A stretch of DNA of 10,945 bases from an uncultured Methanobrevibacter sp. (GTDB lineage Archaea; Methanobacteriota; Methanobacteria; Methanobacteriales; Methanobacteriaceae): contig CAMODR010000017.1 in the NCBI GenBank assembly GCA_946611495.1, forward strand, positions 1-10,945, given 5' to 3'. Position numbers and translations under genes: made by a program. Position 1 is the stretch's first letter. Each line of letters begins with the position of its first letter. Under the pieces are notes generated by a model. It searched no databases and was not told the DNA's origin. It saw only the letters and a program-made list of their open reading frames with translations. Below are positions 2,598 to 9,917 of this stretch, piece after piece.

Positions 2598-3824
2598 TTA
2601 AAGTTCTAATTTTTTAGCTTCTTCTACTAATTTTTGACCTAATTTGAAACTGGTTTCATCATCATCAGCTGCAGGTACATAGTAGATTTCTTGTTGGTCG
2701 ATTACTTCGAATCCACATTCGGTTAATTCGTTTGCGATGAATTCGACAGATCCACCTCTTCCTCCCATGGAACCAAAGGTTACAGCAGGTCTTTTAAATC
2801 CTGTTCTGTTGAAGTGGAGACCTTTTAAGTAATAGATAATATCTCCCATACTTGGGAATGGGAAGTCGTTAATGGTAGGAATACCGAAAGCAACAGCTTT
2901 ACTGGTTAAGATACTCTTAACGATTTCACTTCTTTCGTCTTCGTGTAAGAAGAACATTTCTACATCATATCCTTCAGCGATAATACCTTCAGCAACTTCA
3001 TGAGCCATTTTTTGGGTAGAGTAGTGCATAGTGTCGTAAACGATAGTTACTTTATCTTCTGCAGCTTTACCGGTAGCCCAGTCACTGTATGCACCAATGA
3101 TTTTCATTGGGTCAGTCCAGATTTGTCCGTGGGAAGGAGCAATCATTTTTACTTGTTCTAAAAGGCCTAATTCGATGATTTCATCAAATTTGTTAAGCAC
3201 TTTTTTGCTTAATGGAGTAATTAAGTTACCATAGAATTTTTGAGCTGCATCCATAAGGACAACTTCAGGAATGTCAGTGTCAAATCTTTTTGCGAAACAT
3301 AAGTGTTGACCAAATGCATCGTTAGGGAATAAGATTCCGTCTTCTGCAAGTAAGGTAAACATGCTGTCAGGCCAGTGGAGTAAGAATGCATCTAAGAATG
3401 CTAAGGTTTTTCCACCTAAGTCGAGGGAGTCACCAGTTCCTACAATGTTAAAGTCAGCACCTTCTAATTTAGGGTAGTGTCTGAGTAATCCGCCTTCTGC
3501 AATTTTACTGCAGTAAATAGGAGCATCGAATTTTTTCCATAAGTCGTATAAAACACCACTGTGGTCTTTTTCTACGTGGTTTTGAACAATGTAGTCGACT
3601 TTCATTTCTCTGCCTTCTTGTTCAAATGCATCTTCGATACGTGCCATCATTTCTTCAGTTTTTCCAGGATATGCGTTATCGATGATAGCTACCTTTTCAC
3701 CAAATACAATGTATGCATTGTAAGTGGTTCCGTCTAAGGTATATCCGTGGTAAGATCTTAAGTCCCAGTCGAGTACACCGATCCAGTATACTCCATCACC
3801 TATTTTTTCAGCTTTTGCTTTCAT
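2598..3824 (-). CDS. fprA: F420H2 oxidase (flavodiiron protein)
   Basis: This cytoplasmic enzyme oxidises coenzyme F420H2 and reduces O2 to water, protecting methanogens from oxygen. It is 408 residues, normal for the methanogen FprA/FpaA flavodiiron proteins. The N-terminal metallo-beta-lactamase-like domain (about 1-250) holds the diiron ligands H83, E85, D87 and H88 (NHVEKDHSG), H150 (LLHWPDSM), D169 (PNDAFG) and H232 (APSHG). The C-terminal flavodoxin domain (about 257-405) has an FMN phosphate loop at about 263-270 (VYDTMHYST) and [10 protein letters not shown] at 351-360. There is no rubredoxin or flavin-reductase extension, which fits direct use of F420H2. It is divergent from msvR across a 657-bp region with regulatory boxes, the arrangement described for Methanothermobacter. 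No rubredoxin gene follows, and a strong terminator suggests a single-gene transcript. The start is set by a good ribosome site. A distinction from NO-reducing members cannot be made from sequence alone. Confidence 0.95.
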
Positions 3825-3993: not shown

Positions 3994-4011
3994 GTTCGTT
4001 GATATTTGAAC
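3994..4011. promoter_or_regulatory. Candidate MsvR-binding dyad upstream of fprA
   Basis: GTTCGTTGATATTTGAAC has matching GTTC/GAAC outer arms. Its inner 16 bases (TTCGTT-GATA-TTTGAA) follow the spacing of the TTCGTA-N4-TACGAA motif that I recall being reported for MsvR in Methanothermobacter, with three mismatches. It lies just upstream of the likely fprA promoter. Binding is inferred from motif and context. Confidence 0.45.
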
Positions 4012-4060
4012 ATTTAATTATTTGTCCATTTGTCTATATATAGTTTTGGTTTCACATATA

Positions 4061-4066
4061 ACGAAC
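4061..4066 (-). promoter_or_regulatory. Inverted GTTCGT box (ACGAAC on the plus strand)
   Basis: This is the only exact GTTCGT copy on the minus strand in the fprA-msvR region. It lies mid-region, about 67 bases from the 3994 box. A near match on the plus strand, ATTCGT, is at 4109-4114. A role as an MsvR half-site is inferred. Confidence 0.3.
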
Positions 4067-4248: not shown

Positions 4249-4338
4249 GTTCGTTTATTTTTCCTTGTTTTTTATAGTTTTATACTAAATGTTCGTATTT
4301 TTTCTTAAAAAAACTTATATTTTTTATAAACTGTTCGT
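4249..4338 (+). promoter_or_regulatory. Three GTTCGT boxes at exact 42-bp spacing upstream of msvR
   Basis: GTTCGT occurs at 4249-4254, 4291-4296 and 4333-4338, each start exactly 42 bp from the last, or about four helical turns. The last two share TGTTCGTATTT and a TATA(C/A)ACT-like lead-in. They lie 30-120 bases upstream of the probable msvR TATA box. Such same-face, phased boxes suggest cooperative binding of a regulator, most simply MsvR itself, whose known targets contain TTCG half-sites. The spacing is seen directly; the binding is inferred. Confidence 0.5.
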
Positions 4339-4369
4339 ATTTGAATCTAAAAAAATAAAACATTTTGTA

Positions 4370-4392
4370 TTTATAAGAACAAGTATATATAT
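4370..4392 (+). promoter_or_regulatory. Candidate TATA region of msvR
   Basis: Two TATA-like strings stand upstream of msvR: TTTATAAG at 4370-4377 and TATATATAT at 4384-4392. A start site about 25 bases on would give a leader of roughly 65-80 nt. A small perfect hairpin (arms AAATGAA 4421-4427 and TTCATTT 4433-4439, 5-base loop) would then lie in the leader. Confidence 0.4.
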
Positions 4393-4481: not shown

Positions 4482-5279
4482 ATGGAGAAGGAAGAAACTG
4501 TTACTCAACAAAAAGCAATTCAAATTTTTGCAAAGGCTCCTGGTGAGCTTGGTGTAAATGTTGTTAAAAGCCCAGTAAAATTAACTATTCTTTCTATGTT
4601 AAAAGATACTGATATGGAATTTGATGAAATCGTTAAAAACACTGGTAAATCTAAATCAACTATTTCTGTCCATTTAAAATCTTTAAGAGAAGATGGAATT
4701 GTAAGCTACAGATTTGATGCAAATGACCACAGAAAGAAAATCTTCTATATCAGTTCCAAATTCTTAGGAGAAGTTCAATCTGGAGATGAAAAGGAATTGG
4801 AAGAAAGACAAGCTGAATTCTTAGTCAAAAATATTTTAGATGTAGATAACTTCAAATTCTCTTTCCTTTTATTCCACACCTTAAGATCTAACTTAATCCA
4901 AGAAGGAATTAATATTAACCCAGTTTTAAATCAGACTGGTAAGAATATTGGTGCAGCAATGTATGAAAAGCTCTATGATGAGGACATCAATGTATTCTGT
5001 GACAATATTTGTGAATTCTGGGAAGATAATGGTTTAGGTAAACTTGAAATCAAATTAGGCGATATCATTGATATTACTGCATTTGAATGTTTCGAATGTA
5101 GCTTGCTTCCTAAGAAAGGTAAACCTGCTTGCTACTTAGATGCAGGTATCTTTGAAGCTTTATTCACTAATTACCTTAAAAAGGACATAGAAGTAACTGA
5201 AGTCAAATGTTTCACTATGGGTGATGACTGCTGTAATTTCTTAGTGGAATCCCCTGACGGAACCGCTTTAGCTTACTAG
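4482..5279 (+). CDS. msvR: MsvR-type redox-sensing transcription regulator (ArsR-like HTH plus V4R domain)
   Basis: This is a methanogen-specific V4R regulator, 265 residues. Residues about 28-95 form a winged helix-turn-helix of the ArsR type (PVKLTILSML, then KSKSTISVHLKSLREDGIV as recognition helix, then a basic wing DHRKKIFYI). Residues about 115-258 form a V4R (4-vinyl reductase) domain rich in cysteine: C173, C177, C203, C206 (CFEC), C217, C243, C250 and C251. In characterised MsvR proteins V4R cysteines sense redox state and alter DNA binding. In Methanothermobacter, MsvR represses its own gene and the divergent fpaA oxygen-detoxification operon. Here it is also divergent from fprA, with GTTCGT boxes between the genes, so autoregulation and control of fprA are the expected roles. 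The gene has its own ribosome site and a following hairpin terminator, so it is probably transcribed alone. The family call is strong. Which cysteines react is not knowable from sequence. Confidence 0.9.
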   Translation: MEKEETVTQQKAIQIFAKAPGELGVNVVKSPVKLTILSMLKDTDMEFDEIVKNTGKSKSTISVHLKSLREDGIVSYRFDANDHRKKIFYISSKFLGEVQSGDEKELEERQAEFLVKNILDVDNFKFSFLLFHTLRSNLIQEGININPVLNQTGKNIGAAMYEKLYDEDINVFCDNICEFWEDNGLGKLEIKLGDIIDITAFECFECSLLPKKGKPACYLDAGIFEALFTNYLKKDIEVTEVKCFTMGDDCCNFLVESPDGTALAY

Positions 5280-5364: not shown

Positions 5365-5515
5365 TTTTTTAATTTTGCTTATTTTGTTGGTGTTTATTTT
5401 TTTTCTTTTGAATTATTTTTTTTTATTTTGCTTATTTTGTTGGTGTTTATTTTTTTTCTTTTGAATTATTTTTTTTTATTTTGCTTATTTTGTTGGTGTT
5501 TATTTTTTTTCTTTT
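5365..5515. repeat. 53-bp tandem repeat, about 2.85 copies
   Basis: The string TTTTGCTTATTTTGTTGGTG recurs at 5373, 5426 and 5479, exactly 53 bp apart, with the following T-rich stretch and CTTTTGAATT also repeated. Copies are almost identical in the core and decay at the edges. The array lies in the 451-bp gap between msvR and the helicase gene, right after the msvR terminator. The rest of the gap (about 5516-5690) is AT-rich with no reading frame I can support. Confidence 0.9.
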
Positions 5516-5700
5516 TCAAGTTATTTTTATTCATTTTAGTAATTTTTATTAAGGCTTATTAATTCTTATTTCAAGTAAATTTATCATTATCATAACAATT
5601 TTGCTAATTTAAGTCAATTTTATAATATAAAATCAATTTAACACTCTTAAATGACTTTTTTAATATAAATATTATTTTTCAAGTGCTATAATTAAAAATA

Positions 5701-5730: not shown

Positions 5731-7833
5731 ATGTCAAATTCAATATTCTGTCCCAACTGTGGGATGCTTAAAACAAATTGTGTATGTGGAAGGTATAAGG
5801 CCAAACGTGATAATATAAAGTACACTAAAGGCACAAGAGAAAATCCACAAAATAAGTATAATAGAAGATATTCTAAATCTGGACAATATAATTCTTCTAA
5901 TAATTCAAACAGGTATGGTAACGGAAATAATCGAGATAACCGTTTTACTAAAAGAAATAATAATTATACTAATGGAAAAAGAGCAGATAAAATGAAAAAC
6001 AATACATCATCCAAAAAAGGCTTATATCAATATGAAGAGTCTAATAAAGGTTTATATCAAAATGAAGAGTCTAAAAAAGGTCTCTATCAATACGAAAACC
6101 GTGAACCTGTTCGTATAGTTGAGGAAGAGGACTATGGAACTTCAGAGGTATATGACATAGCAGAGCATGATTTGCCTCAAGAAATTATTGAACAGTTAAA
6201 GGAAGATTATCCAGACATTCAAGAAAACATTATAGAGAACTTCCCATTTGAAAGTCCAAGGGAAGGTCAATTGGAAATCATTTCAGACATTGAAGATGCT
6301 ATTTCCAAAGGATTCAAATATATCATTTTGGAAGCAGGTACAGGTACCGGAAAGTCTGCTGTAGCAACCACTCTTGCGAGAATGTATGAATCAGCATATA
6401 TTCTAACCATGACCAAACAGCTTCAAAAGCAGTATGCAAATGAATTCGATTTTCCACTTGTAAAGGGTAGAGCTAATTTCAACTGTATTAAGGACGGCTT
6501 TGAAGTCACTTGCGATATGGGAGCATGTAAGACTGCACCAAAATCATCTAAATTCTTCTGTCCATATGGAATAAGTAAAAATCCGACTCTTACAGGAGAC
6601 TTGGCTTTTCAGGACTCATTTGGTGGAGACATCTTCTTCCAAACTGATGATCACTGTTATTATTGGCAACAGAAGGCTAATGCAATAAATTCTCCAATCA
6701 CATTAATGAATTATGACTATGCCATTTTAGAGTTGAATTATGTGAAACACTTTGGCAAAAGGTCTTTGCTCATATTGGACGAGGCTCATAACATTGAAGA
6801 TAAGCTAATGAAGACTATGGAAATAAATCTCTATAATCGTCAGCTTGAAAAGGACATTAAAAAGGTAATAAGCCCTCAAACTCTTGCAAGCAAGGAAGTT
6901 GGAGAGTGGATTATGGAAATTGAAGCTATTCAAGGCCATTATTCAGATATTGAAATAAAGGACCTTCCTACCAATAAGGCTGATAGGATTCGCTCCACTT
7001 CAGCAAGGCTTAAGGACTTAAAGACCAAGCTTGAGCAAGAGCCAGGAAACTGGGTAATAGACTCAAATGAAAGTGGAGTTTCATTCAAGCCACTTAAGGT
7101 AAATCATTATGCTAAGGATTACTTATTCAGGCATGGGGATGTTGTCATCTTCTTAAGTGCTACAATACTTTCAGCTAAAATGTTTTCAAGATGGTTAGGC
7201 CTTGATCCAAGAGAGGTCTATCATATCAAAGTGGACAGTCCATTTTCTGTAGAGAAAAGGCCAATTGAATTGAATCTTGCTGGAAAAATGTCTAAAAGCA
7301 GAGTTAAGCAATCTGCACCAAAATCAATTGAGATATTGAATAAGATTCTAAAAAGGCATGAGGGAGATAAGGGCCTCATTCACACCCATTCCTATAAGTG
7401 TCAGCAGTACATAACAAATAATTTATACAACAGCAGATTGATTTCTCATGGTACAAATAATAGGGAAAGAGTGCTTAAATACTTTGAAGAAGATGAAAAT
7501 CCTCTTGTTTTGGTCAGCCCATCAATGAGTGAAGGTGTTGACCTTCCATATGACAAGTGCAGATTCCAAGTCATCTATAAGATTCCTTTCCCATATCTTG
7601 GTGATTTGCAGATAAATATGAGAAGAAAGAAAGATCAAAGATGGTATGCTTATAAGACTGTAATGACATTGATGCAAGCTTATGGAAGAGGAATGAGAGC
7701 AGAAGACGATTCATGTGTGACTTATATTCTTGATTCAGACATTAAGATGCTTCTTAAGAGTCCATTGTACAAGTCACTAATTCCAGAATTCTTTAAGGAA
7801 GCTATTGTTATTAATGATGATCGTATTATCTAA
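5731..7833 (+). CDS. XPD/DinG-family iron-sulfur DNA helicase with N-terminal zinc finger and low-complexity linker
   Basis: This 700-residue protein is a superfamily 2 helicase expected to unwind DNA 5' to 3' in repair or replication. The helicase core starts near residue 170. It has Walker A at 202-209 (AGTGTGKS), four to five cysteines between motifs I and II that fit a 4Fe-4S cluster (C252, C261, C266, C277, also C309), the DEAH box at 350-353, SAT at 476-478, SPSMSEGVDLP at 596-606, and QAYGRGMR at 649-656 with the arginine fingers of motif VI. The N-terminal 130 residues are unusual. A CPNC...CVC cluster (C7, C10, C17, C19) looks like a small zinc finger. Residues 28-92 are rich in Asn, Arg, Tyr, Gly and Lys and probably disordered. 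Residues 95-124 are three 10-residue repeats of the KKGLYQYEES type. The gene is probably leaderless and ends in a strong hairpin. The exact member (XPD or DinG-like) is uncertain. Confidence 0.88.
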   Translation: MSNSIFCPNCGMLKTNCVCGRYKAKRDNIKYTKGTRENPQNKYNRRYSKSGQYNSSNNSNRYGNGNNRDNRFTKRNNNYTNGKRADKMKNNTSSKKGLYQYEESNKGLYQNEESKKGLYQYENREPVRIVEEEDYGTSEVYDIAEHDLPQEIIEQLKEDYPDIQENIIENFPFESPREGQLEIISDIEDAISKGFKYIILEAGTGTGKSAVATTLARMYESAYILTMTKQLQKQYANEFDFPLVKGRANFNCIKDGFEVTCDMGACKTAPKSSKFFCPYGISKNPTLTGDLAFQDSFGGDIFFQTDDHCYYWQQKANAINSPITLMNYDYAILELNYVKHFGKRSLLILDEAHNIEDKLMKTMEINLYNRQLEKDIKKVISPQTLASKEVGEWIMEIEAIQGHYSDIEIKDLPTNKADRIRSTSARLKDLKTKLEQEPGNWVIDSNESGVSFKPLKVNHYAKDYLFRHGDVVIFLSATILSAKMFSRWLGLDPREVYHIKVDSPFSVEKRPIELNLAGKMSKSRVKQSAPKSIEILNKILKRHEGDKGLIHTHSYKCQQYITNNLYNSRLISHGTNNRERVLKYFEEDENPLVLVSPSMSEGVDLPYDKCRFQVIYKIPFPYLGDLQINMRRKKDQRWYAYKTVMTLMQAYGRGMRAEDDSCVTYILDSDIKMLLKSPLYKSLIPEFFKEAIVINDDRII
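6013..6102 (+). repeat. Three in-frame 30-bp repeats in the helicase linker
   Basis: Residues 95-104, 105-114 and 115-124 of the helicase read KKGLYQYEES, NKGLYQNEES and KKGLYQYENR. Several synonymous third-base differences (GGC, GGT and GGT for Gly; TTA, TTA and CTC for Leu) show that the copies are not brand new, and that the peptide sequence has probably been kept. Confidence 0.85.
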
Positions 7834-8731: not shown

Positions 8732-8807
<76 letters not shown>

Positions 8808-8990: not shown

Positions 8991-9824
8991 ATGCTTACAA
9001 AAAGAATTATTCCTTGTCTTGATTGCGACCTCCAAGTTCCAGAGGGCAGAGTGGTAAAGGGAGTTGAATTTAAACAGATACGGTATGCTGGAAATCCAGT
9101 GGAACTTGCCACTAAATATTACGAAGATGGAGCAGATGAGATAGTCATTTTGGATATTACAGCTTCTCATGAGCGTAGAGGAACTATGGTGGATGTAATT
9201 GAAAGACTTACTGAAAACGTATTTATTCCTATCTGTGTTGGAGGAGGAATAAGAAAAGTTGAAGATTATACTCGCATGCTTAAGGCAGGTGCAGATAAAT
9301 GCTCTACAAACACTGCAGCTATTCACAACCCTCAGCTTTTGACAGATGCATCCAAGGTTGTAGGTTCACAGGCTGTTGTCATTGGAATAGATGCAAAGAG
9401 AAGATACGTGGAAGATGATAAGGAAGCGGCTCGAGGAAAAACCATAGTTGATACAGATAAAGGTGAAGTATGGTTTGATTGCAGCATCTATGGTGGAAGA
9501 GAGTTTACAGGCATGGATGCAATTGCTTGGGCTCAAGAATGTCAGGACAGAGGTGCAGGTGAAGTTTTACTCACTTCTATGGATGGAGACGGCACAAAAG
9601 ATGGATATGACCTTGTTCTTACAAAGGCAATTAATGATAATGTGGATATTCCGGTAATTGCATCTGGCGGTGTTGGAAATCCTCAACATATCCTTGAGGC
9701 TTTTGAAGTGGCTGATGCAAGTGCAGCCCTTGCAGCAAGTATTTTCCACTTTGATGAGTATCCTGTGCCAGTCGTTAAAAAATACCTAAAGGAAAAGGGT
9801 GTTCCAATTAGGGAAACCTTTTAA
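8991..9824 (+). CDS. hisF: Imidazole glycerol phosphate synthase, cyclase subunit HisF
   Basis: HisF, with the glutaminase HisH, converts PRFAR and ammonia into imidazole glycerol phosphate and AICAR in histidine synthesis. The protein is a cytoplasmic (beta/alpha)8 barrel of 277 residues from the ATG at 8991. It starts [13 protein letters not shown], which puts the catalytic Asp at D11 as in other HisF proteins. The second catalytic Asp is D134 (IGIDAKR). Phosphate-binding loops are GGGIR at 84-88 and ASGGVGN at 224-230, and [11 protein letters not shown] (197-207) is a family hallmark. A longer frame exists from GTG at 8946, but its extra 15 residues are not family-like and the probable transcription start lies after that GTG. 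A partial ribosome site (GTGAT) precedes 8991. No other his gene is in the window. The last nine codons and the stop lie in a 35-bp unit that is repeated downstream. Confidence 0.95.
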
Positions 9825-9890
9825 ATCAAAAGGGTGTTCCAATTAGGGAAACCTTTTAAATCAAAAGGGTGTTCCAATTAGGGAAACCTT
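9793..9890 (+). repeat. 35-bp tandem repeat built from the 3' end of hisF
   Basis: Units 9793-9827 and 9828-9862 are identical in all 35 bases. A third, 9863-9890, matches for 28 bases and then diverges. The first unit is the coding end of hisF (its last nine codons and the TAA at 9822-9824); the other two are noncoding. Each unit can fold into a small hairpin, GGT(G)TTCC with GGAAACC around the loop AATTAG, and in the first two units it is followed by TTTT. Copy number can change without changing the protein. Confidence 0.92.
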
Positions 9891-9917
9891 CTAATCATTA
9901 GCATTAAGACAATCATT

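Follow-up and report, generated by a model that had tools for sequence, protein, structure and literature searches.

MsvR is one of the few described redox regulators in strictly anaerobic methanogens. In Methanothermobacter thermautotrophicus, the published MsvR boxes have the form TTCGTAN4TACGAA, and same-direction half-sites already belong to the described operator, whose boxes in the msvR/fpaA promoters include one partial direct repeat (PMC3729527). According to the sections of that report drawn on here, fpaA is a target of the protein, MthMsvR, and gel shifts suggest that its units add sequentially (PMC3729527). The MsvR of M. acetivorans tolerates N7-9 between half-sites, and a dyad alone is insufficient for it, as a motif-bearing rpoK fragment was not bound; the fpaA-homologue promoters tested were also unbound (PMC3729527, same sections). 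Thus, a promoter cannot be taken as an MsvR target just because it contains the word or belongs to an fprA gene. Among the titles and opening parts of abstracts of the MsvR literature, no paper on a Methanobrevibacter msvR operator was found; PMC3729527 names Methanobrevibacter in its reference list only, and comparison with PMC7278568 concerns its MsvR passages.

The window analysed here, a 10,945-bp stretch of DNA from an uncultured Methanobrevibacter sp., carries the following features in and around the 657-bp gap between fprA and msvR:

2598..3824, minus strand: fprA, F420H2 oxidase-like, with ODP beta-lactamase and flavodoxin domains, divergent from msvR
3994..3999, plus strand: downstream box of the fprA promoter (ACGAAC in fprA orientation), part of a conserved pair
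4035..4052, minus strand: likely fprA BRE and TATA (AAACCAAAAC, TATATATA), conserved between the two fprA boxes
4061..4066, minus strand: upstream box GTTCGT of the fprA promoter, paired with 3994-3999 at 67 bp
4249..4254, plus strand: box 1, GTTCGT, less conserved than the other two boxes and variable in its spacing
4291..4296, plus strand: box 2, GTTCGT(AT), the middle box of the array
4333..4338, plus strand: box 3, GTTCGT(A), with CTAA then at 4347-4350
4364..4379, plus strand: degenerate MsvR dyad TTTGTA-N4-TAAGAA, a core operator candidate with 10/12 positions of TTCGTAN4TACGAA
4384..4391, plus strand: likely msvR TATA, TATATATA, placed by archaeal promoter convention
4482..5279, plus strand: msvR, 265 aa, with an ArsR-type HTH and a V4R domain

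The identification of the downstream gene as msvR in the original prediction was borne out, its product scoring 303.1 bits against the NCBIfam MsvR equivalog (cut-off 220) and carrying HTH_5 and V4R. The divergent gene was named fprA by homology, as would be expected from the fpaA/msvR neighbourhood in the described system (PMC3729527, in the sections used). We confirmed the three exact same-strand copies of GTTCGT starting at 4249, 4291 and 4333, with gaps of 42 and 42 bp, in a place where a described MsvR operator has at least two boxes. Of the six copies of GTTCGT in the window, one is at 6109 and five lie in the gap, where all can be placed: three at msvR and two at fprA (3994, plus strand, and 4061, minus strand). 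The fprA pair and the near-dyad at 4364-4379 had been omitted from the original prediction. Searches for an RNA element at Rfam gathering thresholds matched only a tRNA (8732-8807) in the window, and a search by sequence for a solved structure found none.

Like boxes 1-3 of M. thermautotrophicus, which read TTCGTA/TACGAA, the boxes of the window adjoin msvR, and the two loci share several half-sites and a nearby fpaA/fprA gene; M. thermautotrophicus has boxes at the msvR BRE/TATA, a place next to which the window has only its degenerate dyad (PMC3729527, in the sections used). The window differs in having distal boxes and a TATA-proximal dyad without CG steps. Its likeness to boxes A and B of M. 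acetivorans lies in an autoregulatory role, probable in the window, in a position upstream of TATA and in TTCG half-sites in AT-rich DNA, whereas M. acetivorans has a single TTCGN7-9CGAA dyad and no upstream array is described for it in the sections of PMC3729527 used here.

We estimated conservation across 19 genomes of the genus. MsvR was found in 18 of them, and promoter counts leave out G014, which gave no MsvR match, and G010 (L016), with only 105 bp upstream. Loci that duplicate assemblies of these genomes were not counted again. Thirteen close congeners encode an MsvR 89-92% identical to that of the window, and the array is present upstream of msvR in every one of them, or 14/14 with the window. 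The TTCG core is kept in 10/14 at box 1, 13/14 at box 2 (TTCC in L011) and 14/14 at box 3. Box 1 is degenerate in four promoters (L002, L006, L008 and L013) and box 2 in L011; TTCG is intact across all three boxes in 9/14, and three boxes are recognisable in 12/14. Boxes 2 and 3 are 42 bp apart in all 14, box 2 having been looked for at exactly that distance and its presence being read from the words found there (GTTCGTAT in 12, ATTCGTGT in L007 and ATTCCTAT in L011). The core of this 42-bp spacer has pairwise identities of 0.48-0.90 (mean 0.67), so length is conserved more strongly here than sequence. When the promoters are aligned, all 14 share one length in the 42-column blocks that separate boxes 2 and 3, and the 5' leader blocks have 4-10 lengths; the region upstream of box 1 is at least as variable in block length, in part owing to ragged input starts.

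The remaining distances are less uniform. From box 1 to box 2 there are 40 bp in nine promoters, 41 in two and 42 in the window only, with box 1 too decayed to be located in L002 and L013; from box 3 to the dyad there are 30 bp in 11, 29 in two and 41 in L006, whose 11-bp indel, roughly one turn, is the only large one from box 1 to TATA. Every box distance that could be read is 29-30 or 40-42 bp, that is 2.8-2.9 and 3.8-4.0 turns; the distances are unequal yet deviate from whole turns of 10.5 bp by no more than roughly a quarter turn, which loosely supports the idea that the boxes share a helix face. The expectation that boxes and spacing would be kept in close relatives therefore held for the boxes and for the 42 bp between boxes 2 and 3, but not for equal 42/42 spacing, which among the genomes compared is special to the window; strict 42/42 phasing is rejected as a shared trait of the 14 carriers. 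In the family tree the window falls inside the 14-row array clade (98/96), within which either 42 or 40 bp may be the ancestral distance. No array was found in the more distant congeners L015, L017 and L018, whose MsvR is 72-76% identical to the window's and whose promoters have isolated TTCGT or ACGAA words only.

What abuts the msvR BRE/TATA is the degenerate dyad, 4 bp from TATA, with boxes 1-3 lying 51-135 bp upstream of the likely TATA. In the window the dyad reads TTTGTATTTATAAGAA, with both CG steps lost. It is the single window match to TTCGTAN4TACGAA with at most two mismatches, and 61/200 whole-window shuffles also gave at least one such match. Nonetheless, the dyad is credible because it stands 4 bp before TATA and is conserved: all 14 array carriers keep it (with TTTGTC in L002 and L010), as do L015, L017 and L018. 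AAGTATATA begins 17 bp from the dyad start in 14/14, a fixed dyad-TATA distance, and the distance from TATA to the msvR start ranges from 89 to 179 bp across the carriers. Upstream of msvR there is no exact TTCGTAN4TACGAA or TTCGN7-9CGAA, the described dyad forms. The array does not stand here in place of a dyad, since the degenerate dyad sits by the likely msvR TATA.

The fprA gene has promoter boxes of its own. In this clade, fprA promoters carry GTTCGTA before and TACGAAC after AACCAAAACTTTATATATA, the likely BRE/TATA. The two boxes are 67 bp apart in 10/12 readable attached promoters, the window included, and 62 bp (G002) and 66 bp (G018) apart in the others; this count leaves out G012, with the pair on a separate contig, and G004, with an unreadable fprA start. 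One box copy is GTTCGC in G005. A search for the fprA-type pattern in the 19 genomes gave 14 places, 12 of them fprA-type promoters (G012 included) and the other two at G007:C21 and G013:C22; at G007:C21:54839-54912 the pair also flanks an AACCAAA stretch. Gene orientation flips within the genus: fprA is divergent from msvR in the window, L015, L017 and L018, and in the 13 close congeners it precedes msvR on the same strand, adjoining it in ten and lying farther away in L002, L007 and L008. In the close congeners each gene keeps its own promoter boxes through these changes. We therefore rejected the array as an fprA element, since it stays with msvR when fprA is elsewhere and fprA has its own pair.

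Half-sites of the same kind occur at msvR promoters beyond this clade. Methanothermobacter-like msvR promoters carry GTTCGTAT or TACGAAC, equal to the window box and in agreement with the published TTCGTAN4TACGAA boxes (PMC3729527, in the sections used), but L168 and L170 have compact half-sites 12 and 18 bp apart, as against same-strand boxes 40-42 bp apart in the window. Upstream of msvR in L166 and L167 are two tandem three-half-site modules (12/18 bp inside), 54 bp apart, and in L164 the second module is incomplete. Other Methanobrevibacter msvR promoters (millerae, thaueri and uncultured) resemble the window in their GTTCGTA half-sites, same-strand pairs among them. We examined 64 other promoters of the family with at least 300 bp upstream, 3/67 having been dropped as shorter. 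A same-strand GTTCG/CGAAC pair at 23-24 bp was present in 20/64, usually with ACGAACAGTTCGT, so same-strand half-sites are common at msvR promoters; within 320 bp of the start, such a pair at 40-42 bp was present in 0/64. Among the promoters compared, the 40/42 array was seen only in this Methanobrevibacter clade. The layout had been put forward as different from known MsvR operators, and this stands for the array, which is unusual, and fails for same-direction half-sites, which are already described (PMC3729527, in the sections used) and occur elsewhere at other spacings.

Our combined findings suggest that the three boxes are probably auxiliary MsvR sites added to the core autoregulatory operator in msvR's own promoter. 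This reading is favoured by the presence of the array in 14/14, by the constancy of the 42 bp while the spacer drifts and the TATA-start distance varies, by the way the array accompanies msvR regardless of what lies upstream, by the identity of the box to Methanothermobacter-like half-sites and by its sharing with fprA promoters. It is weakened by a core dyad without CG steps, by the lack of CGAA partners at N7-9, by the restriction of the array to one clade, by the absence of count enrichment and by mixed neighbours elsewhere. We infer MsvR as the binder, as well as cooperativity and the sign of regulation. Under such a scheme, reduced MsvR dimers would sit on the weak, CpG-less core dyad by the msvR TATA and block TBP/TFB. 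Three stronger upstream half-sites, with successive distances of about 40, 42 and 30 bp down to the dyad and on roughly one helix face, would recruit further dimers, and these may stabilise the complex at the core dyad, giving stepwise repression. Oxidation of V4R cysteines would then loosen the complex, allowing msvR to be transcribed. The inverted box pair 67 bp apart around the fprA TATA may place fprA under MsvR too. As judged from its sequence, the array is real and looks functional, a new layout within a known kind of operator.

It is quite possible, though short of probable, that the boxes are instead imperfect dimer sites (TTCG-N9-CTAA, and CGAA-N2-TTCG at box 2), in which case they would form three weak tandem MsvR dyads and no new layout. 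This alternative is compatible with MsvR as the binder and competes only with a reading of the boxes as lone half-sites. At the partner place, C at +14 is found in 11/14 and T at +15 in 13/14 for box 2 and 14/14 for box 3, followed by A-rich DNA, and N7-9 is a spacing that M. acetivorans MsvR tolerates (PMC3729527, in the sections used). AACGAAT precedes box 2 in 11/14, which gives CGAA-N2-TTCG, with a one-base shift in L011 and absence in the window and L007; AACGAATGTTCG stands at box 2 in 11/14. The perfect ACGAACAGTTCGT also recurs in other Methanobrevibacter msvR promoters. However, the partner reads CTAA rather than CGAA, the partner place at box 1 holds no more than a loose CC/CT, and the partner lies one base farther in L009 and one base nearer at box 2 of the window. 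No CGAA partner at N7-9 was found for any of the three boxes in the window, with CTAA at box 3 instead.

Returning to auxiliary MsvR sites as the preferred reading, the fixed distance between boxes 2 and 3 might alternatively stem from tandem duplication of a 42-bp box-bearing unit, the spacing being a copying relic without a role. Tandem Repeats Finder reported 4272-4355 as a repeat of period 42 (2.0 copies, 81% matches), and the flanks of boxes 2 and 3 are alike beyond shuffles, at p < 0.05 uncorrected, in 6/14 promoters (the window, L004, L005, L007, L010 and L014). However, period 42 over boxes 2-3 was detected in 1/14 upstream regions, the window, and L004 and L005 instead give a weak period 20 over boxes 1-2. 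Flanks are also more alike between orthologues (means 0.67-0.77) than between units within a genome (0.29-0.65), so any copying would predate the clade, with boxes and 42-bp distance still in place after the units had decayed. We thus consider a mere relic unlikely.

Binding of the boxes by a regulator other than MsvR seems similarly improbable. In its favour, genomes of the genus have 2-7 matches each to the MsvR-family profile, of which, among the matches listed, at most one per genome is above the cut-off. Against it, the word is the described MsvR half-site, msvR promoters of several genera contain it again, and it is also found at fprA, the kind of gene controlled by MthMsvR.

In favour of auxiliary MsvR sites, the exact two-box pattern at 38-44 bp matched 20 places in the 19 genomes; msvR promoters account for 16 of these, in 12/14 array genomes, and the other four are G002:C52 and G017:C9 (identical in sequence), G003:C1:2268386 and G010:C328. 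A broad regulon with an identical array is rejected on this distribution. Counts show no enrichment across the 19 genomes: reversed-pattern controls gave about 82 matches against 20 for the two-box pattern and 55 against 14 (forward) for the fprA-type pattern, and TGTTCGTAYT (forward and reverse) was below its reversed-pattern control in 19/19. It is therefore the places, not the numbers, of the patterns that carry the argument.

Neighbourhoods of TGTTCGTAYT were sampled in 80 stretches, comprising sites away from msvR and fprA in the 14 array genomes (minus G016:C23 and G017:C3), four sites of G013, 3/6 of G010, 2/5 of G014 and the odd places of the two-box and fprA patterns, with none from G009 and G011. 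These stretches hold 77 matches, 30 of them inside ORFs as drawn by a crude ORF caller. Recurrent neighbours, recognised by eye, are an acyltransferase-like gene in eight, with a UDP-galactopyranose-mutase-like gene on the other side in four, an asparaginase/GatD-like gene in four, a UPF0147-like small protein in three, and anaerobic ribonucleotide-reductase-like and surface-protein-like genes in two each; in the sampled stretches they form no clear oxidative-stress set. TGTTCGTAYT lies about 26-36 bp from the acyltransferase-like start, on the opposite strand, in L222, L223, L231, L239, L248, L260, L264 and L271.

Lastly, the copy number and spacing of GTTCGT were compared with shuffled DNA. 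The six copies in the window, both strands counted, compare with 1.02 expected, and 0/200 shuffles reached six; bare TTCG, with 33 occurrences in the window where 35 are expected, shows no enrichment. Among 20,000 dinucleotide-preserving shuffles of the 657-bp fprA-msvR gap, none reached five copies, and a single one carried three copies on the same strand. When every hexamer with at least two G/C was allowed, an evenly spaced triple appeared in 20/20,000, so the probability is about 0.001 even after allowing for the choice of word. Chance in very AT-rich DNA (543/657 positions of the gap are A or T) is thus exceedingly improbable and is rejected, as GTTCGT occurred as an evenly spaced triple (step 10-119) in 0/20,000 shuffles, in line with the original expectation, and the array is kept in 14/14. 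The three-box array is correct as described and is not a product of chance.

A further, rather doubtful extension is conceivable, in which MsvR autoregulation has been rebuilt in this clade: after decay of the TATA dyad, its part would have passed to a distal array of three same-strand half-sites on one helix face, with an ordered MsvR oligomer over about 130 bp providing graded redox control rather than an on/off switch. Lineages of the MsvR family share the half-site but arrange it in differing numbers, directions and spacings, a natural series of variants that can inform the way in which an archaeal ArsR-type/V4R dimer builds up on its operators. For testing, this clade offers concrete constraints of 42 bp and 67 bp.

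The window also contains other repeats. Just downstream of msvR is a 53-bp tandem repeat (5365-5537, 3.2 copies, 95% matches), and a 35-bp tandem repeat (9793-9894, 2.9 copies, 98% matches) lies over the 3' end of an ORF that is hisF-like by eye. Two tandem repeats are outside the listed ORFs, at 2264-2431 (60 bp, 2.8 copies) and 1-82 (22 bp, 3.7 copies). A 30-bp in-frame repeat (6013-6096) encodes GLYQYEES repeats near the N terminus of an ORF that is helicase-like by eye.
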